Assembly (NCBI GenBank): GCA_030066735.1
Contig: JASJBB010000018.1
Location: 1 to 43,719 of the forward strand
Direction of reading: 5' to 3'
Length of the DNA stretch: 43,719 bases
Source: Woeseiaceae bacterium
GTDB lineage: Bacteria > Pseudomonadota > Gammaproteobacteria > Steroidobacterales > Woeseiaceae
The notes beneath the pieces were generated by a model, which saw only the letters and a list, made by a program, of their open reading frames with translations, ran no database searches and was not told the origin of the DNA. Shown here piece by piece: positions 19,493 to 32,295 of the stretch (position 1 is the first letter of the stretch; each line of letters starts with the position of its first letter). The translations under genes and the position numbers were made by a program.

Positions 19493-20629
19493 TCATCCGA
19501 TCACGCGTTCAACCAGCCAGTATGCCGCGACGACGGAGATCGCCACCGACCCACCCTGGATCACCACCGGGACGAACCAGGACTTCTTGCGCAGCAGGTA
19601 GAGCAACGGGAATACGGCAAGCACGATAGCCAGCTGCCCGAGTTCGACGCCCAGGTTGAACAAGACCATGACCTTGACGAGATCGACCATGCGGAAGGTA
19701 AGGTGCCCCATGACCGTGGCAAAACCGAGGCCATGAAACAGGCCGAACAGGAATATCACGACCCAGCGCTTCGGCAGGTATGGTCGTAAATTGTCCATCG
19801 CCATGACGATGATCGACAAAGCGATGACGATCTCCACCGGCCGGCTGGGAAGCTTCACGATGTCCAGCGCCGCGAGACTCAGCGAGATCGAGTGGGCGAC
19901 CGTGAAAACCGTGACAATACCCGCGACCTTGAGCAACGGATTGCGAAAACTCTCTTCGGGAACCCAGCGGCCGGCTTGCCAGAATACGACCGAGGTCAGC
20001 AGCAGCGACAGCAGGAACAGGATGTGATCGTAGCCAATCAGGATGTGCCAGGCGCCTTGCCACAGGAACTCGCGCAGCTGTAACAGGCCGGGCACATCCA
20101 CCAGGTCGAGTTCCTGGACGGCATTGTCCGGCCGAAAAATCAGCGCCGTGTATTCCTCGCCAAAGTCCCTGCCAGCGACCGCGTTGCGCTCAATGAGCAG
20201 CAGCCCCCGGTGACGTGGGTCCTGCTCGAAGAACAGGGTTTGCCGGATGATCAGGCTTTCGGGCAGGGCGCCCGCCCATTCGGCAGCGAAGTGCAGGTGC
20301 AGGAACTCGCCTTGCGGCAGGGTCATCCTGCCAGCGTCCCGGAAATCGAGTTGCAGCGGCTGGTCGAACGCGCTGATCTCGAGGTGCTCGCCCACGTAGG
20401 CGACAACGGGTTGCAGCGCGGCGGCGTCCGGCACTTCATCCTGAAGCTGCAGGCCGAACTTGCTGTCGAGTTCGTTCTGATGCAGTTCCACCCGAACGTG
20501 CAGCGCATCCTCGTCGATGTTCAGGAACACATAGTTCTCGCCCGTGCTGTGGGCGAAGGCGGCGTGCGCGAATGCGAGCAAGAGAATCGTGCCGCAGGTC
20601 TTCCTGACCTGCTTACATAATCCAGTCAA
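19493..20629 (-). CDS. HupE/UreJ-like membrane protein
   Basis: 378 residues. The TTG start sits 7 bases after a GGGGGAG ribosome site and is followed by a signal peptide ending near AFAHST. A beta-rich periplasmic domain (about 28-185) precedes six or so membrane helices; the segment WHILIGYDHILFLLSLL and the pattern VFTVAHSISLSLAAL with conserved histidines are typical of the HupE/UreJ_2 family. HupE/UreJ relatives are secondary metal (mainly nickel) permeases, but the substrate of this extended form is not known. It diverges from the peptide synthetase operon and shares its upstream region. Confidence 0.78.
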   Translation of the reverse strand: MTGLCKQVRKTCGTILLLAFAHAAFAHSTGENYVFLNIDEDALHVRVELHQNELDSKFGLQLQDEVPDAAALQPVVAYVGEHLEISAFDQPLQLDFRDAGRMTLPQGEFLHLHFAAEWAGALPESLIIRQTLFFEQDPRHRGLLLIERNAVAGRDFGEEYTALIFRPDNAVQELDLVDVPGLLQLREFLWQGAWHILIGYDHILFLLSLLLTSVVFWQAGRWVPEESFRNPLLKVAGIVTVFTVAHSISLSLAALDIVKLPSRPVEIVIALSIIVMAMDNLRPYLPKRWVVIFLFGLFHGLGFATVMGHLTFRMVDLVKVMVLFNLGVELGQLAIVLAVFPLLYLLRKKSWFVPVVIQGGSVAISVVAAYWLVERVIG

Positions 20630-20749: not shown

Positions 20750-23700
20750 ATGACAATAACATCGACGGGGCCTACCCCTGAGTCGGGATCAATACGACAG
20801 CTTACTCATGTCGAGAATCTGATCTGGATCGGCCAGCGGATGGCGGGCAGCGCGCCTGTCTACAACATGGCGCTGGCGATAACGCTGCGCGGCGTCGATG
20901 CAAACCGGTTCGCGCAGGCCTACCCGCGCATGGCCGAGGGGTTTGCGCCGCTGCGCGCCAGCGTGCGCAATAGCGAAGCGGGGCCGCTGCTCGATCTTGT
21001 CACCGCGCAACCGCGCGACCTCGAGTTGCTCGACTTGCGCGCAGAAAACGACGCGCTGGCCAGTGCGAAAGACTGGATGGAGCGCGCGGCGGCTGAGCCG
21101 TTCGACCTGGACGAACCGCTGGTCCGCTCGGCGCTCATTCGCATCGATGACGACGATTACATCTGGTTCGTCAACCAGCACCACATCGTTACGGACGCCT
21201 GGTCCTGCAAGTTGATGGTGGCCGCCATGGACCGGGCATACCGCGACGAGCCCGGCGACGATGTCGCGGCGGCAATCGGCCAGTTGCCGCCAGCGAAAGC
21301 GATTACGGAGTCGCGACTGGAAGAGGCGCGCTCGCACTGGCGCCGGGTGTATCGCGGCGTACCGCAACAGGACCCGACCTTCGGCCGCCTCAATCCCGAC
21401 CGCGATGCCGCGTCGGACCGCCTCTGCTACCACCTCGACGCAGAGGAGGTTACGCGCTTGCAGGCAGTCGCGAGTCGCGAGTTTCGGTCGTTTTCGCCCC
21501 ACATGTCGCTGTTCATCGCGTTCTCCACCCTGCTGGTGTCCTTGATGAGCCGTATCTCGCAGCGGCGCAGCATCGGCTTCGAGGCGCCGTTTGCCAATCG
21601 CGCGACCAAGCGCGCACAGCAGACACCAGGGCTGTTCATCGAGCTCTTTCCGCTGGCCGCCGACGTTGACGGCGCATCCACGTTTGCCAGCGTTGGGGCT
21701 CAGATTCAAAAGCAGCTGCCGGAAACCGTGAAGTACGGCATACCGGGCTCCAGCGTACCGACCGGCAACAACGGCTGCGACGCCGTGCTCAATTTCATTC
21801 CGTTCCTGCTCGGCGATTTCGACGGCGCACCCGTGCAGGCGGAGTTCGTGCACCCGGGCGCGCATGACGCGGCGCACGCATTGCGGCTGCAGGTCTGGGA
21901 CCTGCGCAGCGACGGTGGGCTCACGATCATGTTCGACATGAACCACGCGATGATCGGCGCGGAAAACCAGGACACGGTGATCGGCTACTTCAAGTCGTTA
22001 ATGGCCGCGTTCATCGAACAGCCCGAGGCACGGGTGGCGTCGATCCCGCTGCTGCCGGATGCGCAGCGACGCAAGGTGATTGACGACTACAACGACACCG
22101 GCGACACGCCGCTGCCGCAGCAGCCAATCGTGCAGACGATTTACGAGCAGGCCGGCAGGACCCCGGACGCGCCGGCGTTGGCCTGCCAGGGCGACCGGTT
22201 GAGCTATGCCGAGCTCACAGCCCGGGTGGACGCAGCCGCGGCAGCGCTTGCGGACCTGGGAATCTCGGCCGGCGACCGGGTCTGCATCTCGGCCACGCGG
22301 TCGATGGCGCTGATCGAATCGATCCTGGCAGTCATGAGGCTCGGAGCGACCTATGTGCCGGTGGATCCCGACTATCCCGCATCGCGTCGTGCGGCGATCT
22401 ACGAGAACGTGCAGCCCCAGCTGCTCCTTAGCGACGACGGGCGAGGTGACGCCGCAGCCGGCGGCATTCACCACGCTGTGATGGCCGACTTGCGCAACGG
22501 CGAGACGGCTGCCGAAGCGGCGCAAGCCGCTTTGCCGGCATGGTCGCAGCTGGGGCTGGACGACCTGGCTTACGTCCTGTTCACCTCCGGGTCGACGGGC
22601 AAGCCGAAGGGCGTGCCTGTCAGCCAGGAAGGGCTGGCCGTCTACCTGCACTGGGCGGCCTCGGTGTATGGCGACGAGGGCCCGGTTACGATGCCGCTGC
22701 TGACGTCGATCGCCTTCGACCTGACCGTCACGTCGATGTTTTTGCCGCTGCTGAGCGGCGGCTGCGTGGTCGTCTATACGCCGACCACCGATGCATTCGA
22801 CGATTCGCTGTTTCGCGCCGTTGAAGACGATCTCGTCGATACCATCAAGCTCACCCCGTCTCACCTGCGCATGCTGCAGCGGCTGGACCTGCACCGGTCG
22901 CGAATTCGCAACCTGATCGTCGGCGGCGAGCAGCTCACTACCGATGTGGCCGACGCTATCGACCGCCAGTTCGGTAACGTGCGGATATTCAACGAGTACG
23001 GGCCCACCGAGGCCGTGGTCGGCTGCATGATCCATCAGCACGTCCCGTCTGACGCGGCAACCAATACGCTCGGTTCACATGCGGTTCCGATCGGCAGGCC
23101 GGCAGCCCACACGCGCATCTATCTGCTGAACGAGGCCCGGCAGCCGGTGCATCCCGAGGTAACCGGCGAAATCTACGTTCATCGCACAGGAGCCCCCACG
23201 GCATACCTCGACGCGCCCGACGCCACGGCCGGCGCGTTCTTCCCCGACCTAGTGGCGCCGCAGGAGACCATGTACCGGACCGGCGACCTCGCGCGCTTCA
23301 ATGCAAACGGAGACCTCGTGTATCTGGGTCGAATCGACCAGCAGGTGAAGGTGGCCGGGCATCGCGTGGAGACCGAGGAAATCGAGAGCGCCCTCACTCG
23401 TGTCGCAGGCGTCGAAGACTGCAGCGTCCTGCTCGATCGGCCGGCCGGCTCGGCGCCTGCCGCAGTCGTGCATTGTTCGGAGTGCGGTATCGGCAACGAC
23501 ACGCCGGGCATCAAGCTCGACCAGGCGGCGCGTTGCAACCTGTGCCGCGACTTCGACAAGTATGCGGGCCGGGTCGACGCCTATTTCCGGGAGCGGGAGC
23601 AGCTGCGCGAGGTCATCGCGGAGGCGGCCAAAAGAAAGACCGGCGAGTACGACTGCATGGCGTTGCTGAGCGGCGGCAAGGACAGCTCCTACGCGCTGTA

Positions 23701-24964
23701 CCAGCTCGTCAACATGGGCTTCAAGGTCTACGGGCTCACGCTGGACAATGGATTCATCTCGCCGGAAGCCCTCGCCAACGCCCAGCGCGTCGTCGACGAT
23801 CTCGGTATCGATCACGAGTTCGCTTCCTCGGAGCACATGCCGGAGATCTTTCGCGACAGCCTGAGCCGCTTCAGCAACGTGTGCCAGGGCTGCTTCAAAA
23901 CGATCTACACGCTAAGCCTGCGTCGCGCCGACGAACTCGGCATCCCGGTGCTGGTAACGGGCCTGTCTCGCGGCCAGCTGTTCGAGACGCGGCTCAACCT
24001 CGGCCTGTTCCACGGCAACCGCAGCGACGAGGAGATCGACCGCACCGTGCTGCAGGCCCGCAAGGCCTACCACCGCCGCAACGACGCGGTCACCCGGTGT
24101 CTCGGCAACGAGGAGTTCCTGGACGACGACATTTTCGAGCGTATCCAGCTCGTGGACTTCTACCGCTACTGGAGCGCGTCACTGACCGAGATGCTCGACT
24201 TCCTGCAAACGCGGGCGCCCTGGGTTCGTCCTGCGGACACCGGCCGTTCCACCAACTGCCTGATCAACGACGTCGGCATTCATGTGCACCGCAAGGAGCG
24301 CGGGTTCCACAACTACGCCGTGCCGTACAGCTGGGACGTACGCCTGCAACAGAAGGATCGCGAGCAGGCAGTGCACGAACTGAACGACGACATCGACGCC
24401 GGGAGGGTCAGGGAGATTCTCGAGGAAATCGATTATCAGCCCGTGCACAGGGAGGACCGCAGGGCCGAGCAGCTGGTCGCGTTTTACGCCGCGGCAGAGG
24501 CAAAGGACCCCGAACAACTGCGCGGGGCGCTCGAGGACGTTCTGCCCGCCTGGGCGGTTCCACATCGCTTTATCCACGTCGATTCGATTCCGCTGACCGT
24601 CAACGGCAAGGTCGACAAGAGCACACTGCTGGCGAAGCTGTCGGCGACGCCCTCGTCGCAGCCGTTTCGCACGCCGGAGACCGAAGGTGAGGAGGCGGTG
24701 GCCGAACTCTGGGCGGAACTCCTGCCCGTGGTGGAAATCGGAGCAGACGATAACTTCTTCGAGCTGGGCGGCACATCAATCGAGGCCATCGAGTTCATGA
24801 CGCGGCTATGTGACGGGTTCGGGGTCGAGCTGCCTTTGGACCTGATCTTCAATAAACCGGTTCTCGCGGAGGTCGCCGTGGAACTGGAGTCGGCGCTGGT
24901 TGCCCAGATCGAGGGGATGACCGACGCTGAAGTGCGTGCCGCACTGGAAAATGAGAGCGCCTGA
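20750..24964 (+). CDS. NRPS module 1: C-A(with PP-loop insertion)-PCP
   Basis: 1404-residue synthetase with a condensation domain (about 15-440; HHIVTDAW, His144/His145/Asp149, where the usual Gly after Asp is Ala) and an adenylation domain with FTSGSTGKPKG (611-621), NEYGPTE (748-754), YRTGD (842-846) and DQQVKVAGHR. About 340 foreign residues then follow (about 905-1245). The A domain resumes with LPAWAVPHRF and catalytic Lys1287 (NGKVDKS), then a carrier domain (LGGTSIE, Ser1343). The insertion has CSEC (909-912) and CNLC (929-932), a PP-loop SGGKDS (974-979), then CQGC (1045-1048) and a GLSRGQLFETRLNLGLF segment like the TtcA thiolase GHHxDD..ET region. The active-site residues read DLTKIGEVGK, one change from the code I recall for asparagine. 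Starting with a C domain implies an incoming acyl carrier, presumably the free pyrrolyl carrier encoded at 32056. Confidence 0.9.
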   Translation: MTITSTGPTPESGSIRQLTHVENLIWIGQRMAGSAPVYNMALAITLRGVDANRFAQAYPRMAEGFAPLRASVRNSEAGPLLDLVTAQPRDLELLDLRAENDALASAKDWMERAAAEPFDLDEPLVRSALIRIDDDDYIWFVNQHHIVTDAWSCKLMVAAMDRAYRDEPGDDVAAAIGQLPPAKAITESRLEEARSHWRRVYRGVPQQDPTFGRLNPDRDAASDRLCYHLDAEEVTRLQAVASREFRSFSPHMSLFIAFSTLLVSLMSRISQRRSIGFEAPFANRATKRAQQTPGLFIELFPLAADVDGASTFASVGAQIQKQLPETVKYGIPGSSVPTGNNGCDAVLNFIPFLLGDFDGAPVQAEFVHPGAHDAAHALRLQVWDLRSDGGLTIMFDMNHAMIGAENQDTVIGYFKSLMAAFIEQPEARVASIPLLPDAQRRKVIDDYNDTGDTPLPQQPIVQTIYEQAGRTPDAPALACQGDRLSYAELTARVDAAAAALADLGISAGDRVCISATRSMALIESILAVMRLGATYVPVDPDYPASRRAAIYENVQPQLLLSDDGRGDAAAGGIHHAVMADLRNGETAAEAAQAALPAWSQLGLDDLAYVLFTSGSTGKPKGVPVSQEGLAVYLHWAASVYGDEGPVTMPLLTSIAFDLTVTSMFLPLLSGGCVVVYTPTTDAFDDSLFRAVEDDLVDTIKLTPSHLRMLQRLDLHRSRIRNLIVGGEQLTTDVADAIDRQFGNVRIFNEYGPTEAVVGCMIHQHVPSDAATNTLGSHAVPIGRPAAHTRIYLLNEARQPVHPEVTGEIYVHRTGAPTAYLDAPDATAGAFFPDLVAPQETMYRTGDLARFNANGDLVYLGRIDQQVKVAGHRVETEEIESALTRVAGVEDCSVLLDRPAGSAPAAVVHCSECGIGNDTPGIKLDQAARCNLCRDFDKYAGRVDAYFREREQLREVIAEAAKRKTGEYDCMALLSGGKDSSYALYQLVNMGFKVYGLTLDNGFISPEALANAQRVVDDLGIDHEFASSEHMPEIFRDSLSRFSNVCQGCFKTIYTLSLRRADELGIPVLVTGLSRGQLFETRLNLGLFHGNRSDEEIDRTVLQARKAYHRRNDAVTRCLGNEEFLDDDIFERIQLVDFYRYWSASLTEMLDFLQTRAPWVRPADTGRSTNCLINDVGIHVHRKERGFHNYAVPYSWDVRLQQKDREQAVHELNDDIDAGRVREILEEIDYQPVHREDRRAEQLVAFYAAAEAKDPEQLRGALEDVLPAWAVPHRFIHVDSIPLTVNGKVDKSTLLAKLSATPSSQPFRTPETEGEEAVAELWAELLPVVEIGADDNFFELGGTSIEAIEFMTRLCDGFGVELPLDLIFNKPVLAEVAVELESALVAQIEGMTDAEVRAALENESA

Positions 24965-24966
24965 CC

Positions 24967-27786
24967 TTGGCAACCACCTCTGACAGCAACCGGACAGCCG
25001 ATTCCGAGGCGCGTAGCAGCCTGCTGAAGCAGCGGTTGCGGCAGCGCCAGCCGGAGGCCCGAGACGATTCCGCCCGGGCCGACACGAATGTTGTCCCGGA
25101 CGGACCGGTGGAACTCGGTCCCTACCAGCGGCCGCTGTTCGTGGAATACCGGATGTATCCGGAGCGCCGCACGGCCTGGATCATTCGCGGCTACCTGCTC
25201 GACGGCCATGTCGATGCCCGGCGCCTCGCCGCAGCCTTGTCGCAACTGCGCCAACGGCACTGGTACCTGAGCTGCGCGATCACGGCCGACGGCAAAGTAC
25301 ATCCGCGAGCAGCGGACATTCCGCTCGAAACCGTGGACTGTGCCGGGGATCCATGGGAGCAAGCGCGCCGCTATTGCCGCGGCCCGTTCAAGCCGTTCCG
25401 GCTGGAGCAGGGGGAGCTGTTCCGGGTCCACGTCTTCCAGGGCGGGGAACAGGCTGCGGTGGTGGTGGCCATCCACCACATACTCGCCGATCACCAGGCG
25501 GTCGACGTGTTGTCGACGGAGCTGAGCGCTCTCTATGAAAACGCAGCGTACGAGCTGAGTCCGCCGCCAGACCTGCTGCGCACTTACGATCAGCAAAGGG
25601 AAAACCTGGCGTCGCGGCGTCCGGCCCTCGAGGAATTCTGGCGCTCCTACCTGGACGGCCTGCCGCCTGTCAGGCCGCTGCCGCTGGCCCGTTCGCAGGA
25701 TACGGCGGGCGAGGGCAAGGGTGCGCTGGTACGCGCCGACGCGCGCCCCGGCCTCGCCGAAATGTGCCTCGCGGCGGCTGCCCGCGAAGGCGTGTCGTTG
25801 TACCAGTGGTTCCTTGCAGCCTGGACGGTTCTGTTGGCACGGTATCACGATCGCGACGACGTCCATCTCGCCACGATGTTCTCGACGCGAGCGGGTGCCC
25901 GGCAACAGCAGGCGCTGGGCTGTTTCCAGAATGTCCTGATCGCCAGGCCCGGTCTCGAATCTGCGGCGACGTTTGCCGATGTGCTGGCCGAAACGCGATC
26001 GGTCGTCGGCAATGCGATCGCACACGGCAGTCTGCCGCTCGACGAAATTGCCCGCCTGGCGCCGGCACGTCCGGGGGGCGGCCAGCTCTTTTCCACCCTG
26101 TTTACGCTGGTCGCCACGGCCCCCCAGCCCCGGCTGCTGTCCAGCAAAGTGCTGGCAGTCGAGGAACTCGACTACGCGGGCACGGCGTTCGACCTGACGT
26201 TCTTCGTCATCACATCCGACGAGGGACTGACTTTCGCGGCCGAGTTCAATACGGCGGTCTACGACGGCGCCGAACTGGAGGCGCTGTTCGATCACTACCA
26301 GGCGTTGCTCGGCTGCCTGGCGCGCGATACCGATGCCGACTGGCGTCGCTGCAGTCTCGTCGACCAGGACGGTCTCGAGGAGCTGCGCGCGGACTGGCGG
26401 CGAATCGCCGCTGCGCCTGCACCCGTCGAGCGCTTGCACGACGGGTTCTACCGGCAAGCCGCGTCGGACCCGGATGCGACGGCGCTGCGGTGGGGGCCGG
26501 ACGGTGACGTGCAGCAGATCAGCTACGGCGAGCTGGCCGCGCGGGCCGACGCCATTGCCGGTTTCATCGACTCCGTCGCCAGCAGCGACGATGCAATCGT
26601 CGCCGTCATCGGCGCATGGCGGCCGGAGTCGATCGCGGCAATGATCGGCATCCTGCGCTCGGGGCGCAGCTACCTGCCGGTCGACGCCGACTATCCGCCG
26701 TCTCGCGTCGAGCACATTCTGACCGATGCCGGCCGCCCGCTGGTGCTGCTGCAGGATGGAATTCCGGCGCCTGGCGGCTTCGCCGATCGCTGCCACGCGA
26801 TGAGCGCAGCGATGAATTCCGCGCGGGTACCCGAGACGCGCGACGACACCGGGGAGATTGCCTACGTCGTGTATACCTCCGGGTCGAGCGGCAAACCCAA
26901 GGGCGTGCGCGTCAGTCACGGCGCGGCCGTCTACTCGACCGGGGAAAGAAGCGCGGTCTACGCGGAGTGGCCGCCCGAGACGTTCCTGCTGCTGTCCAGC
27001 TTCGCGTTCGACAGCGCCGTGGCGGGTCTCTGGTGGACCCTGTCGACAGGCGGCTGCCTGCGGCTTGTAGACCGGCAGACGGCGCGAGCCGCCGATGCGG
27101 TCGCCGAGCTGATTCATCGCGAGCGCATTACCCATACGCTGTGCCTGCCGGGCCAGTGGAGCGACATCTGCCGCATCAGCGAACAGCCGTTCGATGCCCT
27201 GCAGCTCGTCATCGTGGCCGGAGAGGCTTGCACTGGCACCACAATCAGAAACCACTATCGAAGAGCGCCCAATGCAGCGCTGTTCAACGAGTACGGGCCG
27301 ACCGAGATGGCGGTCTGGAGCACGGTCCAGCGCCTCGAGCGCGGTGCAAGCGAGCCGGTCCCGATCGGCCGGCCGCTGAGCCTGACGCAGGCGCTCATCA
27401 CCGATGCCTACGGCAACCTGGTGCCGGGTGGACTATCCGGCGAACTGGTGCTGGCAGGCGCCGGAACGGCCGCCGGCTACGTCGGTGACAGGAACGGCGG
27501 GTTCATTGCCCATCCGCTCGATGAAGACGGCCGCGCCTATCGCACCGGGGACCGCGCGCGGCTTGGCAGCGACGGCCAGATCTACTATCTCGGCCGCAGC
27601 GACGAACAGGTCAAGCACCGGGGCTACCGCATCGGCATCGAGTCCATCGAGCAGTCGCTCGGCGCGGCCGGGCCGGAGGTGGTGGTCATTCCCTGGGACG
27701 GCCGATCGCTGGAAGATCTGCTTGCAGAGCTGCCCGAGGACCAGGCGCTCGCGCTCGTGGACAAATACCTGGCCGCGAAAGGGTAG
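24967..27786 (+). CDS. NRPS module 2, N-terminal half: C-A core without C-terminal subdomain
   Basis: 939 residues, TTG start 2 bases after module 1. A short Gln/Arg-rich leader is followed by a condensation domain (about 40-470; HHILADH, His170/His171/Asp175) and an adenylation core with YTSGSSGKPKG (636-646), NEYGPTE (774-780), YRTGD (858-862) and DEQVKHRGYRIG. The protein then stops about 50 residues later, so motif A9, the A10 lysine, and any carrier domain are missing. The last 25 residues form an amphipathic helix (LAELPEDQALALVDKYL). The pocket residues read DSALIAEVWK, which I cannot assign to an amino acid. The missing parts are encoded on the opposite strand in the next gene, 4 bases away. 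Confidence 0.88.
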   Translation: MATTSDSNRTADSEARSSLLKQRLRQRQPEARDDSARADTNVVPDGPVELGPYQRPLFVEYRMYPERRTAWIIRGYLLDGHVDARRLAAALSQLRQRHWYLSCAITADGKVHPRAADIPLETVDCAGDPWEQARRYCRGPFKPFRLEQGELFRVHVFQGGEQAAVVVAIHHILADHQAVDVLSTELSALYENAAYELSPPPDLLRTYDQQRENLASRRPALEEFWRSYLDGLPPVRPLPLARSQDTAGEGKGALVRADARPGLAEMCLAAAAREGVSLYQWFLAAWTVLLARYHDRDDVHLATMFSTRAGARQQQALGCFQNVLIARPGLESAATFADVLAETRSVVGNAIAHGSLPLDEIARLAPARPGGGQLFSTLFTLVATAPQPRLLSSKVLAVEELDYAGTAFDLTFFVITSDEGLTFAAEFNTAVYDGAELEALFDHYQALLGCLARDTDADWRRCSLVDQDGLEELRADWRRIAAAPAPVERLHDGFYRQAASDPDATALRWGPDGDVQQISYGELAARADAIAGFIDSVASSDDAIVAVIGAWRPESIAAMIGILRSGRSYLPVDADYPPSRVEHILTDAGRPLVLLQDGIPAPGGFADRCHAMSAAMNSARVPETRDDTGEIAYVVYTSGSSGKPKGVRVSHGAAVYSTGERSAVYAEWPPETFLLLSSFAFDSAVAGLWWTLSTGGCLRLVDRQTARAADAVAELIHRERITHTLCLPGQWSDICRISEQPFDALQLVIVAGEACTGTTIRNHYRRAPNAALFNEYGPTEMAVWSTVQRLERGASEPVPIGRPLSLTQALITDAYGNLVPGGLSGELVLAGAGTAAGYVGDRNGGFIAHPLDEDGRAYRTGDRARLGSDGQIYYLGRSDEQVKHRGYRIGIESIEQSLGAAGPEVVVIPWDGRSLEDLLAELPEDQALALVDKYLAAKG

Positions 27787-27790
27787 ACCT

Positions 27791-29146
27791 TCAGGCGAGG
27801 CTTTTTTCGACGTCGTCGATGACGACGGGAATCACCGACTCCGACATGAACGGATCCAGCAGGATGCCGTGGTGATCCGTATCGAGTACGTGCATCGCGC
27901 AGTCGTCGCGAAGGCGCCTCTGCCAGTCGCGACTGATCAACCAGGAATTGTCGGAACAGGCAATGAGCGCCGCCGGTCCCGAGTATTCCGCCGGCCGGAA
28001 GCTGCGGCGCAGCTCCTGAGCGCGGACATATTCGTAGTAGCTCGTGTCCGCACTCGTGTCTGCACCCGATGCAGTGCCGTTGCCTGGCGACGTGCCGCGG
28101 CGCCTGGCCGAGACTTTCGCGAGCCGCCGCCAGAAGCGTGCTCGTAACGGGTTATTGACCCACAGCCACTTGAGGTAGGGGTTCTGGCCCTGGCGGAGTT
28201 CGCCGGCATCATTGAGATCGAGTTCGAACCACGTGCGGCGGCGGTGAAGGAGCGAGGGTTCGATGAGTACCGTCAGCGTGGGTTCGCGCCCGGAAGCCTG
28301 CAGCTGTCGTGCGGCTTCGAACGCCACCATGGCCGAAAAGGACGAGCCGATGAGCAGGAACTTCCTGTCGTCACAGAGCTGCCGGATCTCGCTGGCGATA
28401 CCCTCCGCCAGGTGCTCGATACTGTCGTAGTGGATGTCCTGTTCGTTCTCGTCGCGCCACCGGTACTGCACGCCGAAGATGCTCCAGTCTTCCCTGCGCG
28501 GCTTCAGCGCATAGGCCAGCCGTGCCGATGAGAAAACGAACACAGGCAGTCCCGACGTGTGCTCGCTGACGGGGTAAACGTGATCGTGCTGGCGCGCACC
28601 TTGCTCGTTCAGCAGCGCTGCGATGCCCCGCGGCGTGGGATGATTCAGGAATTCGGTGATGCTGATGCGCTCGCCGGTGTTCTCTTCGAGCTCCAGAATG
28701 CAATCGACGGCCAGCAGGCTGTGTCCGCCGAGCTCGAAAAAATTCGAGTCGGGGCCGACGCTCACGCCGCCCAATACCTTCGTGAATGTCGCGACAGCAG
28801 ATGACATAACGCCGTTTGCACCAGTTTGGACATCGCCGGCAGGGCCGGACTCGCGCTGTTCGGGACGGACGAGCCCCGGCAGACCGCGGCGGTCGAGCTT
28901 GCCATGCGGGGTCCTCGGCAGGCTGCCTGTGGCGATAAAACGGGTTGGGCGTTCGTGCTCCGGAAGCCGCGCTGCCGCAACTGCCCGCAGCGCCTCTGGA
29001 TTGGCGCCTGAATCCTCTTCGTAGACCAGCACGAGCTCTCGCACGGACGGCGGCGGCGACTCGCCAGAGCGCTCCATGAGCTCCCTGAAGAGGCGCACTC
29101 TGTCCCTGTCGGAGAGCTGCTCGAGCTTGTTGCTTAACTCACCCAT
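27791..29146 (-). CDS. NRPS module 2, C-terminal half: A C-subdomain-PCP-thioesterase
   Basis: 451 residues. It opens with an amphipathic helix (LEQLSDRDRVRLFRELM), then the second half of an adenylation C-terminal subdomain (RELVLVYEED, ARLPEHERPTRF, and TPHGKLDRRG with the A10 lysine at Lys83). A carrier domain follows (ELGGHSLLA, Ser143), then a thioesterase (about 195-451) with GSSFSA as nucleophile elbow (Ser269; the usual last Gly is Ser) and a late DTDHHGIL holding the likely catalytic His. No adenylation core precedes it: an in-frame stop lies 7 codons before the ATG. Together with the convergent upstream gene it makes one complete C-A-PCP-TE module. Confidence 0.88.
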   Translation of the reverse strand: MGELSNKLEQLSDRDRVRLFRELMERSGESPPPSVRELVLVYEEDSGANPEALRAVAAARLPEHERPTRFIATGSLPRTPHGKLDRRGLPGLVRPEQRESGPAGDVQTGANGVMSSAVATFTKVLGGVSVGPDSNFFELGGHSLLAVDCILELEENTGERISITEFLNHPTPRGIAALLNEQGARQHDHVYPVSEHTSGLPVFVFSSARLAYALKPRREDWSIFGVQYRWRDENEQDIHYDSIEHLAEGIASEIRQLCDDRKFLLIGSSFSAMVAFEAARQLQASGREPTLTVLIEPSLLHRRRTWFELDLNDAGELRQGQNPYLKWLWVNNPLRARFWRRLAKVSARRRGTSPGNGTASGADTSADTSYYEYVRAQELRRSFRPAEYSGPAALIACSDNSWLISRDWQRRLRDDCAMHVLDTDHHGILLDPFMSESVIPVVIDDVEKSLA

Positions 29147-29268: not shown

Positions 29269-29313
29269 GTCGATACGACCTGTTACAAATGAAGTCGATA
29301 CGACCTGATACAA
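29269..29313. promoter_or_regulatory. Tandem 20-bp direct repeat with palindromic cores
   Basis: Two 20-base copies (29269-29288 and 29294-29313) differ at one position and start 25 bases apart. Each contains the palindrome GTCG-ATA-CGAC. They lie 15-59 bases before the dehydrogenase ATG at 29328, the place expected for an operator pair controlling the starter-unit operon. Confidence 0.6.
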
Positions 29314-29327
29314 CGACAATAAGAACT

Positions 29328-30473
29328 ATGCATCCCGACTGGAACGAAAAAGAACGCGGCCTGTACGAAAGCGTCGTCACGTTCTGCAAGGAAAGCCTGC
29401 AGCACGACGTCGGTGCGTTCGACGCCCGTAGCGAATTCCCGAAAGAGGCTTGGCAGAGTTGTGCCGACTTCGGCGTGCTCGGCTGGCGCGTGCCGGTCGA
29501 ACGCGGCGGCAAGGGCTATGGCGAGAGCCTGGTCGCCTACCTGATGGAAGCCTTCGGGTACGGCTGCGAGGACAACGGACTGGCGTTCGCAATCGGTACG
29601 CAGTTGTGGGGAGTCCAGACGGCCTTGCTGCAGTTCGGCAGCGAGGAGCAACTCGAGAAGTATGTCCCGGGCATGATGCGCGGCGAGCTGATCGGCGCGC
29701 ACGCCATGAACGAGGAAAGCAGCGGGTCCGATGCGTTCGCCATTGAAACGACCGCCGTTGCCGATGGCGATGACTTCCTGCTCAATGGCGAGAAGACGCT
29801 GGTCACCTTCGCGCCCATTGCCGACTTCGCAGTTGTATTCGCCAAGACGGCGCCGGATGCCGGCCAGTGGGGCATTTCGACATTCCTTGTCGATGCCGAT
29901 ACGCCTGGATATACCGCGAGCGCACCGGACGAGATGATGGGTCTGCGAACCGCGCCTTACGGCCGCGTGCTGCTCGAGGACTGCCGTGTTCCCGCCAGTT
30001 CGCTGCTCGGCAAGGCGGGAGCCGGCGCCAGTATTTTCAGCCACATCCAGGCCTGGGAGCGCAGCCTCGTGCTGGCGCCGCATATCGGAGCGATGCAGCG
30101 CCTGCTCGAGCAGAGCCTGGCCTTTGCGCGCGAGCGCAAGCGCGGCGGCGCCGCGATAGGCAAGCACCAGGCCGTGTCGCACCGGATCGCCGACATGAAG
30201 CTACGCCTCGAGACGGCGCGATTGCTGTTGTACAACACGGTGCGCAAGCAGCAGGACGGCGCGGCCGACCTCATGGACTCCGCCCTGACCAAGATCTATC
30301 TCAGCGAGTGCCTGACTCAGTCGGCGCTCGATGCGATAGCGATTCACGGCGGCGACGGTTATCTGACCGAAGCCGGCATCGAGCGCAACCTGCGCGATGC
30401 AATCGGCGCAACGATTTACAGCGGCACCACGGACATACAGCGCAATATCGTTGCGCGCTTGCTGGGACTGTAG
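29328..30473 (+). CDS. PltE-like prolyl-carrier dehydrogenase (acyl-CoA dehydrogenase fold)
   Basis: FAD-dependent, 382 residues. In the classical acyl-CoA dehydrogenase motif YEGTSEIQ the catalytic Glu is replaced: here it reads YSGTTDIQ (Ser365). A glutamate is instead present in AWERS (Glu244), the position used by isovaleryl-CoA dehydrogenase and by prolyl-S-carrier dehydrogenases such as PltE. The segments QAVSHRIADMKLRLE and IGATIYSGTTD resemble PltE strongly. Predicted reaction: oxidation of L-prolyl-S-PCP to pyrrole-2-carboxyl-S-PCP. I chose the ATG at 29328, since an earlier in-frame ATG (29289) would put the tandem operator inside the gene. It is followed 14 bases later by the adenylation enzyme. 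Confidence 0.82.
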   Translation: MHPDWNEKERGLYESVVTFCKESLQHDVGAFDARSEFPKEAWQSCADFGVLGWRVPVERGGKGYGESLVAYLMEAFGYGCEDNGLAFAIGTQLWGVQTALLQFGSEEQLEKYVPGMMRGELIGAHAMNEESSGSDAFAIETTAVADGDDFLLNGEKTLVTFAPIADFAVVFAKTAPDAGQWGISTFLVDADTPGYTASAPDEMMGLRTAPYGRVLLEDCRVPASSLLGKAGAGASIFSHIQAWERSLVLAPHIGAMQRLLEQSLAFARERKRGGAAIGKHQAVSHRIADMKLRLETARLLLYNTVRKQQDGAADLMDSALTKIYLSECLTQSALDAIAIHGGDGYLTEAGIERNLRDAIGATIYSGTTDIQRNIVARLLGL

Positions 30474-30487
30474 TCAGGGACGCTACG

Positions 30488-32059
30488 ATGTTCGATTTTC
30501 TCATTCATTCGCCAGTCACTCACTACGCACGGACGACGCCGGACCACGCGGCCTTCAGCTGCAGCGGCGCCGAACTCAGCTACGCCGAGCTCGACAGGGC
30601 AAGCAACCAGCTTGCACAAGCGCTGCTTGCCAACGGGCTGAAGCAGGGTGACCGCATCGGCATCTACATGCACAAGTCGCTCGAGCTGGGCGTCGCGATT
30701 TATGGCGCGCTGAAGGCAGGCGGTATCTTCGTGCCGCTGGATCCGTTCATGCCGACCGAGCGCCTGCAGTTCATCCTCGACGACTGCGATATCCGGCACG
30801 TGGTCAGCGCCGACGCGATGGCGCCGAAACTGGCGGAGCTGTCGGGCTCGTATCCGGGCTGGGTCTACGGCGTGGACGTCGAACTCGAATTGCAGACGGC
30901 CGGATGGCGGCAGATCAGGGAGCTGCCCGATGCGCAACCCGACGTCTGGATCGTGGACCAGGACCTGGCTTACATCATGTACACGTCCGGTTCGACCGGT
31001 CAGCCGAAGGGCATGATGCACAGCCACCACGGCAGCATCAGCTACGCGCGCTGGGGCGCCCAGCATGTCGGGCTGACCGCCGCAGACCGTGTCGCCAGCC
31101 ATGCGCCGCTGCATTTCGACCTGAGCATATTCGACTTCTTCTCGACCTCGCAGTCAGGCGCCACCGTCGTACTGGTGCCGGAACCCGTGACCAAGTTTGC
31201 AGCGAGCTGGACCGAGTACATCGAGAAGGAGCGCATCAGCGTCGTCTTTACCGTGCCGTTCACGCTTATCGACATGATGCAGCGCGGGGCGATGGAAAAA
31301 CGTGACCTGTCGTCGCTGCGGTGGGTGCTGTTCGGCGGCGAACCGTTTCCGCCCAAGCATCTGCGGGCGCTGATGGAGCAGTTGCCAGACGTTCGCTGGA
31401 CCAACGTTTACGGACCGGCGGAAGCGCCGTCATGCACGGTGTACGACCTGCCGCCGTTCCCCGAGCCGTTCCCCGAGCCGGTTCCGATCGGCACCGTGTC
31501 GGTCAACTCGCACGACCTGATCATCGACGAAGACGACCAGGATTGCGGCGTCGGCGAGGAAGGGGAGCTGTGCATCCGGAGTTCCACACTGACCAGGGGC
31601 TACTGGAACCGTCCGGATCTCAACAAGCGCGTCTACCTGTACCGGGAGAGCTTCGGGCCTTTCCCGGACGTCTGGTTCCGTACGGGCGACCTGGTCGTGC
31701 GTCACGAGGACGGCCTGCTGCGCTTTCTCGGCCGCAAGGATCGCATGGTCAAGACGCGCGGGCACCGCGTCGAGCTGGACGAGGTCGAGGCCGCGCTGGC
31801 GACGCACGCTGATGTCCTGGAAGCGGCGGCGTTCGTGGTGCCGGATGACATGGGCAGCAAGTCGATACTGGCTGCCGTGAAGCTGCGGGAGACCTCGAGC
31901 GCCGCGGTCGGCGACTTGCTGCAGCACGCGCGCACCAAGCTGCCTGGCTATGCCGTGCCGCAGAACCTGTTCGCCGTGCGGGAGTTTCCGCGCACGAGCA
32001 GCGGCAAGATCGACCGCAAGGAAATCATCAACCGGTATGTAGGCAGCGGTGCCGCATGA
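30488..32059 (+). CDS. Free-standing adenylation enzyme, L-prolyl-carrier ligase-like (PltF type)
   Basis: 523 residues, AGGGA ribosome site 7 bases before the ATG. Complete ANL enzyme: YTSGSTGQPKG (165-175), the pocket segment HFDLSIFDFF (Asp211), YGPAEAPSCTVYDLP, FRTGDLV, KTRGHRVE and the catalytic Lys507 in SSGKIDRK. The YGPxExxxCTxY pattern and a pocket I read as D-L-F-F-L-G-V-S-C-K resemble proline-activating PltF/RedM/AnaC enzymes more than typical module A domains. It lacks a fused carrier and should load the small carrier encoded immediately downstream, with which it overlaps by 4 bases. Confidence 0.83.
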   Translation: MFDFLIHSPVTHYARTTPDHAAFSCSGAELSYAELDRASNQLAQALLANGLKQGDRIGIYMHKSLELGVAIYGALKAGGIFVPLDPFMPTERLQFILDDCDIRHVVSADAMAPKLAELSGSYPGWVYGVDVELELQTAGWRQIRELPDAQPDVWIVDQDLAYIMYTSGSTGQPKGMMHSHHGSISYARWGAQHVGLTAADRVASHAPLHFDLSIFDFFSTSQSGATVVLVPEPVTKFAASWTEYIEKERISVVFTVPFTLIDMMQRGAMEKRDLSSLRWVLFGGEPFPPKHLRALMEQLPDVRWTNVYGPAEAPSCTVYDLPPFPEPFPEPVPIGTVSVNSHDLIIDEDDQDCGVGEEGELCIRSSTLTRGYWNRPDLNKRVYLYRESFGPFPDVWFRTGDLVVRHEDGLLRFLGRKDRMVKTRGHRVELDEVEAALATHADVLEAAAFVVPDDMGSKSILAAVKLRETSSAAVGDLLQHARTKLPGYAVPQNLFAVREFPRTSSGKIDRKEIINRYVGSGAA

Positions 32060-32295
32060 ATATCGACGCGCTTCGTGAATTCATCCAGACCGAGATTCTG
32101 AGCGATCCGGAATTCGTCATCGAAGCGGACCAGGACCTGCTCCTGTCCGAGACGCTCAACTCACTGAGCGTGACGCTGCTCATTGCGCACATCGAGACGA
32201 CCTGCAACGTGCACATTCCTCCGGAAGACGTAACGCTCGAGAACTTCAGTACGTTGCGGAGTATCGAGACCTACATCGGGAGCATCGCCCCCTGA
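32056..32295 (+). CDS. Free-standing peptidyl carrier protein (PltL type)
   Basis: 79 residues. Phosphopantetheine site Ser36 in the motif ETLNSLSV, where the usual D-S-L is N-S-L. A small acidic helical bundle of carrier-protein size. The ATGA overlap with the adenylation gene and the dehydrogenase just upstream match the PltF/PltE/PltL trio. It would carry proline, then pyrrole-2-carboxylate, to the first condensation domain. No phosphopantetheinyl transferase is present in the window. Confidence 0.85.
   Translation: MNIDALREFIQTEILSDPEFVIEADQDLLLSETLNSLSVTLLIAHIETTCNVHIPPEDVTLENFSTLRSIETYIGSIAP

Follow-up and report, generated by a model that had tools for sequence, protein, structure and literature searches.

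The stretch of DNA considered here (the window) comprises positions 1 to 43,719 of contig JASJBB010000018.1 (GCA_030066735.1) from a Woeseiaceae bacterium of the Gammaproteobacteria, and it encodes a nonribosomal peptide synthetase (NRPS) whose first module carries a PP-loop domain inserted in its adenylation (A) domain. This insert is very probably an AMDH (aminomutase/amide dehydratase) domain of the CysH and AlbIV kind, which acts on asparagine bound to the peptidyl carrier protein (PCP) and leads to a nitrile or to aminomutation. The domain type is already known and the window holds a further AMDH member. AMDH domains are described from CysH of cystobactamid and AlbIV of albicidin biosynthesis (PMC7966384, PMC12283262). 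According to the sections of the CysH study used here, asparagine bound to the thiolation (T) domain loses 18 Da to give beta-cyanoalanine, which does not occur without the AMDH domain, and this domain is also required for the isoasparagine linkers; the homologues reported there all lie within Asn-type A domains and all have SGGKD (PMC7966384). The sections used of the albicidin source give the beta-cyanoalanine domain the code DLTKIGEVGK, also listed there for Asn-type A domains, and a 342-aa insertion of the AANH superfamily (PMC12283262).

The insert and its kinship to CysH and AlbIV

The host module is made up as follows.
20750..24964, + strand: NRPS module 1, condensation (C)-A(AMDH)-PCP, a single open reading frame (ORF) of 1404 aa
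20801..22075, + strand: C domain, residues 18-442 (Pfam PF00668, 1.1e-35)
22145..23194, + strand: A core, residues 466-815, code DLTKIGEVGK (Pfam PF00501, AMP-binding, 1.4e-70)
23465..24445, + strand: inserted AMDH/PP-loop domain, residues 906-1232, between A8 and A9
24455..24610, + strand: remaining A C-terminal subdomain (A9-A10), residues 1236-1287 (Pfam PF13193, AMP-binding_C)
24695..24877, + strand: module 1 PCP, residues 1316-1376 (Pfam PF00550, PP-binding)

An extra domain between A8 and A10 had been proposed from the letters of the DNA alone, and it is confirmed as residues 906-1232. A8 begins at residue 860, and an A9-like LPAWAVP and then the A10 motif NGKVDK follow downstream of the insert. 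In an alignment (A3) of the window and 58 loci, for which the sole criterion was a host ORF extending at least 455 aa upstream and at least 150 aa downstream of the domain, residues G860, R861 and K867 of A8 and lysine 1287 are invariant in 59/59 modules from diverse phyla; therefore, the insertion point is common to all, that is, the domain sits at one shared site in the 59 aligned modules. The A core is absent upstream in the same frame in the Streptomyces and Pseudomonas copies L007, L065, L070, L071, L074 and L075, and stretches like the A C-terminal subdomain, judged by eye, still flank the domain in L070, L071 and L075.

These loci were collected in a scan of species genomes which gave at least 80 loci. 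In L010-L080 the domain lies within NRPS genes or next to them, and these listed matches come from Cyanobacteria, Actinomycetota, Bacteroidota, Pseudomonadota, Acidobacteriota, Chloroflexota, Bacillota and others. The set of 74 loci used below consists of the 80 listed loci minus L081-L089 (distant AANH proteins) and L012 (same record as L005 and near-identical to L006), plus the window, L003, L006 and L007. The domain alignment (A2: the window and 67 loci, 68 domains) further omits the fragments L028, L077 and L080, and A3 omits nine more for short flank, including L065, L070, L071, L074 and L075 with no preceding A core. When the proteins of 107 genomes from the window's family were searched, the insert turned up in two, both of one genus; among 398 genomes drawn from the phylum it was found only in the window's own, and 11 plasmid records gave three NRPS-type copies (Pseudohalocynthiibacter, Roseovarius and Streptomyces).

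The closest link to a characterised system comes from the Myxococcota, where the domain was found in three of 195 genomes searched, one being that of L016. The other two encode stand-alone A-AMDH-T proteins with long NRPS-sized frames nearby, and both adjoin a TauD dioxygenase (CysJ-like) and an O-methyltransferase (CysQ-like), a chorismate-binding enzyme being also near the copy in L129; these two loci match the make-up of the cystobactamid cluster. The window's insert is 49% (161/328) and 48% (158/327) identical to their AMDH domains over the full length, and all seven conserved cysteines and SGGKDS are present in both. In the tree, after four long rows had been removed, a branch with an SH-aLRT support of 100 separates 55 rows, which include the window's module and the CysH-like copies, from 15 other AANH rows; the same branch with these four rows and without the CysH rows has a support of 85/91. 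The original prediction knew of no described NRPS with this arrangement, but CysH and AlbIV share it, and the arrangement is neither unique nor undescribed. CysH resembles the window's module in having a PP-loop domain with the same cysteines and SGGKD in an Asn-type A domain, whereas it stands alone as an A-AMDH-T protein served in trans by CysJ, CysQ and CysB, and the window's module has its own C domain, is followed in line by a second module and has no CysJ-like gene detected nearby. AlbIV is alike in its described insertion, ascribed to the AANH superfamily, its code and the beta-cyanoalanine proposed for it (PMC12283262, PMC7966384), but its product class is unrelated, judging from the neighbouring genes.

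Motifs, fold family and other explanations of the insert

The motifs of the insert are as follows.
23474..23545, + strand: N-terminal CxxC pair C909/C912 and C929/C932, putatively of zinc type, kept in 67-68 of 68 domains
23669..23686, + strand: PP-loop SGGKDS, residues 974-979, 68/68
23882..23893, + strand: C1045-x-x-C1048, in register with the iron-sulfur (Fe-S) ligands C154/C157 of CtaC
24257..24259, + strand: C1170, in register with the CtaC Fe-S ligand C284, 68/68

The predicted CxxC motifs at 909/912, 929/932 and 1045/1048 and the SGGKDS loop are exactly in place, and both loop and cysteines are kept across homologues: SGGKDS is present in all 68 domains of A2, a set partly selected by a pattern that includes SGGKDS, and the cysteines matching 909, 912, 932, 1045, 1048 and 1170 occur in 68/68 and that matching 929 in 67/68. 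C1170, the seventh conserved cysteine and the third of Fe-S type, had been overlooked. Similarity to PP-loop proteins, on which the same prediction depended, is also present; TIGR03573 aligns end to end, and Pfam matches the PP-loop portion only (QueC and others). TIGR03573 is the best family in the profile search, with 103.2 bits against a cut-off of 203.2, and a PDB sequence search gave distant PP-loop proteins only (6 at E <= 0.01). The proposal that the domain has features of two groups is borne out, as it resembles both WbuX/WbpG-type amidotransferases and Fe-S thiolases.

The Fe-S likeness is seen with CtaC, a thiotemplated thioamide synthetase which acts on a PCP-bound substrate (PMC6772006). 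A 376-aa frame in the genome G525 is taken as CtaC because five published residues (D77, S78, C154, C157 and C284, counted from the first Met) match exactly. It is 21% identical to the window's domain over 314 positions; C1045, C1048 and C1170 align with C154, C157 and C284, and the PP-loop with D77/S78. The three cysteines would ligate an Fe-S cluster in the window's domain. As the CysH study describes, in the sections used here, CysH is brown, no Fe-S motif was found, its mechanism was left unexplained, and the fold family, metal and mechanism of AMDH were left unsettled (PMC7966384); a [4Fe-4S] cluster on the aligned cysteines may account for the brown colour.

On this likeness the insert might be an embedded thioamide synthetase, in which sulfur carried by a [4Fe-4S] cluster takes the place of the amide oxygen, either in the side chain of PCP-bound Asn or in the acyl-Asn bond, to give a soft-metal ligand. 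Besides the residues in register and the common PP-loop and N-terminal CxxC pair, the PCP-bound substrate of CtaC, an hhalign probability of 99.2 between A2 and a 180-aa CtaC piece, and the metal-uptake neighbours, which would suit such a product, speak for it. However, the same three cysteines occur in 16/19 non-AMDH AANH rows, including the WbuX-type P0016 and L098, so they do not discriminate among sulfur, nitrogen and nitrile chemistry and are no mark of sulfur transfer; the identity to CtaC equals that to the sugar amidotransferase P0016 (21%); and CtaC, which is free-standing and replaces oxygen by sulfur, pairs with the stand-alone L095 (100/85) among other stand-alone proteins and apart from the embedded copies. 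A nitrile is what CysH, the closest characterised domain, yields, and because CysH-like domains are far closer (48-49% vs 21%) the thioamide explanation is rejected as the leading one and is held to be improbable.

That the insert is a vestige of a PP-loop enzyme, with no catalytic role or with a regulatory one, is very improbable. Three clostridial embedded copies do have degenerate PP-loops (SGGKGS in L094 and L100, SGGRGA in L101), but SGGKDS is found throughout the main set, albeit partly picked by it, and also in the G042 copy, which came from the whole-protein search. As separate observations, the A domains of L094, L100 and L101 (Clostridia; the L101 genome is taken as R. cellulolyticum) appear by eye to contain also a B12-binding-like stretch upstream, and in the clostridial L102 an AANH domain is fused behind a thioesterase at the NRPS end.

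Scarcely probable at all is an embedded WbuX/WbpG-type amidotransferase making an amidine from amide and ammonia: TIGR03573, the family of the N-acetyl sugar amidotransferases, is the top family for all 68 members, matches over the full length and in some members has the same cysteine layout, but the window's copy reaches only half its cut-off, WbuX/WbpG act on sugars, HisH/HisF partner genes are not found near the window's NRPS and their homologues occur in 1/74 loci, there adjoining a separate sugar amidotransferase (WbuX), and homologues of AsnB that include a glutaminase domain are encoded just upstream in 7/74 loci, the window not among them.

Substrate and proposed reaction

The ten-letter code DLTKIGEVGK is found in 40/59 rows including the window, an Asn-type variant in 14 more, and 54/59 rows fit DL(T/S)K(I/V)GE(V/I)GK. 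The five remaining rows have codes near Gln/Glu (L066 and L076) or aminoadipate/Asn (L064, L068 and L069), as judged from the codes given in PMC12283262, so that a side-chain amide could plausibly be the target shared by all. The AsnB homologue belongs to L007, L064, L068, L069, L070, L074 and L075, none of which, where coded, bears the Asn code, and its occurrence at such loci is consistent with a side-chain carboxamide being acted on.

In the AMDH mechanism that we propose, the host A domain would load L-Asn onto the PCP of its own module, and the embedded PP-loop domain would take a second ATP and adenylate the side-chain amide oxygen of Asn. Elimination of AMP from this adenyl-imidate would give PCP-bound beta-cyano-L-alanine; aminomutation to isoasparagine, as known for CysH, would be the alternative outcome. 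By analogy, the window's copy would perform the same reaction as CysH. The starter joined to the modified residue by the C domain would be an acyl group, probably pyrrole-2-carboxyl, with module 2 and the thioesterase completing the peptide. The original prediction of an amide oxygen activated by ATP is supported, and the nitrile, one of its three options, is the reaction shown for CysH, whereas the replacement by sulfur or nitrogen which it preferred finds no direct support, HisH/HisF glutaminases being confined to the one locus mentioned.

Several points weigh against the AMDH assignment or narrow it. The CysH-like identity of the two Myxococcota loci rests on gene content, and AlbIV is likened by its published description. 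Homology to the query proteins revealed no CysJ-like TauD gene at any of the 74 loci, so either of the two AMDH reactions may run. ATP use may not extend to every copy, given the three broken clostridial PP-loops, and a nitrile does not readily suggest itself as a ligand for metals, though the neighbouring genes resemble metal uptake.

Neighbouring genes and a possible metallophore

The genes around module 1 are as follows.
19493..20629, - strand: HupE/UreJ-family membrane protein (PF13795, 6.4e-45)
24967..27786, + strand: module 2, C-A core, the frame stopping before the A C-terminal subdomain
27791..29146, - strand: A C-terminal subdomain-PCP-thioesterase, the missing half of module 2 on the opposite strand
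29289..30473, + strand: acyl-CoA-dehydrogenase family protein, nearest PigA/prolyl-PCP dehydrogenase (NF053553, 366 bits, cut-off 500; NF045652, 365 bits, cut-off 650)
30488..32059, + strand: stand-alone AMP ligase, presumed prolyl-AMP ligase by adjacency
32056..32295, + strand: stand-alone PCP, 79 aa
32323..34386, - strand: TonB-dependent receptor (PF00593, 3.2e-31, and Plug)

HupE/UreJ proteins are described, in the parts of the sources used, as nickel permeases and in cyanobacteria also as cobalt permeases (PMC4771312, PMC4284471). Homologues occur in 43/74 loci, and in 37 of the 52 that have sufficient flanking sequence; a PigA/prolyl-PCP-dehydrogenase-like homologue is found in 30/74 and a TonB receptor homologue in 17/74, that is, 16 Bacteroidota loci and the window. 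Since these counts come from homology searches with a small number of query proteins, unrelated TonB, permease and dioxygenase types would escape, and the Pfam survey of neighbours covered 100 of 154 candidate genes. PF13795 has four matches in the 3.34 Mb of the window's genome, a chance of about 2% per 20-kb locus at the density of this one genome, and when 61 genomes of this genus were searched, the two with matches to the cluster-type HupE beyond 1e-40 were those bearing the insert. The recurrence of the HupE/UreJ, dehydrogenase-like and TonB genes suggests a family of metallophore clusters, and we infer a metallophore role for the window's cluster because a HupE/UreJ protein, described as a nickel/cobalt permease, and a TonB receptor accompany the module. 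Against this, HupE is absent in 15/52 and the TonB homologue in 37/52 well-flanked loci. Among the proteins scanned, no known chelator pathway was recognised. A wider proposal, that there is an undescribed pan-bacterial metallophore family with a pyrrole-type starter, AMDH-modified Asn and TonB/HupE-UreJ uptake, whose AMDH is of the [4Fe-4S] CtaC/TtcA kind and in some members could make thioasparagine with sulfide, is possible but doubtful. Neither such a metal-uptake neighbourhood nor the Fe-S cysteine alignment with CtaC was found for AMDH in the literature, in a weak search in which post-2021 AMDH papers were not sought by name.

Three further observations concern these neighbourhoods. A secreted-looking histidine-rich protein of 155 aa, possibly metal-binding and with no Pfam or NCBIfam match, adjoins the NRPS in 13 Bacteroidota loci (L030, L031, L036, L042-L045, L049, L052, L054, L057, L058 and L060). 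In the window's genome, a second HupE-type gene on G000:C54 (L121:9299-10186), truncated by the contig end and sharing 66% identity with its counterpart in the window over 128 aa, is followed by a phosphopantetheinyl-transferase-like gene, and there may be a second cluster. The split A domain of module 2, with its C-A core and its convergent second half, has counterparts, as a separate subdomain-PCP-thioesterase gene is found in eight loci (L003, L023, L030, L044, L049, L057, L079 and the window); by eye, a methyltransferase (MT)-like frame lies between the module 2 halves in L003, and the neighbouring frame ends in similar sequence in L023 and L079, as though an A-MT-A domain had come apart.

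Setting AMDH beside CtaC and WbuX, with its cysteines in register with the CtaC Fe-S ligands, offers a testable answer to the questions of fold family, metal and mechanism. For specialists, the interest lies in the Fe-S question and in the product of the HupE/TonB-linked clusters: the module accompanies a HupE/UreJ gene across many phyla and is restricted in one genus to two HupE-bearing genomes, which points to a metal-related product, and cultured marine flavobacteria offer a source from which it could be isolated.

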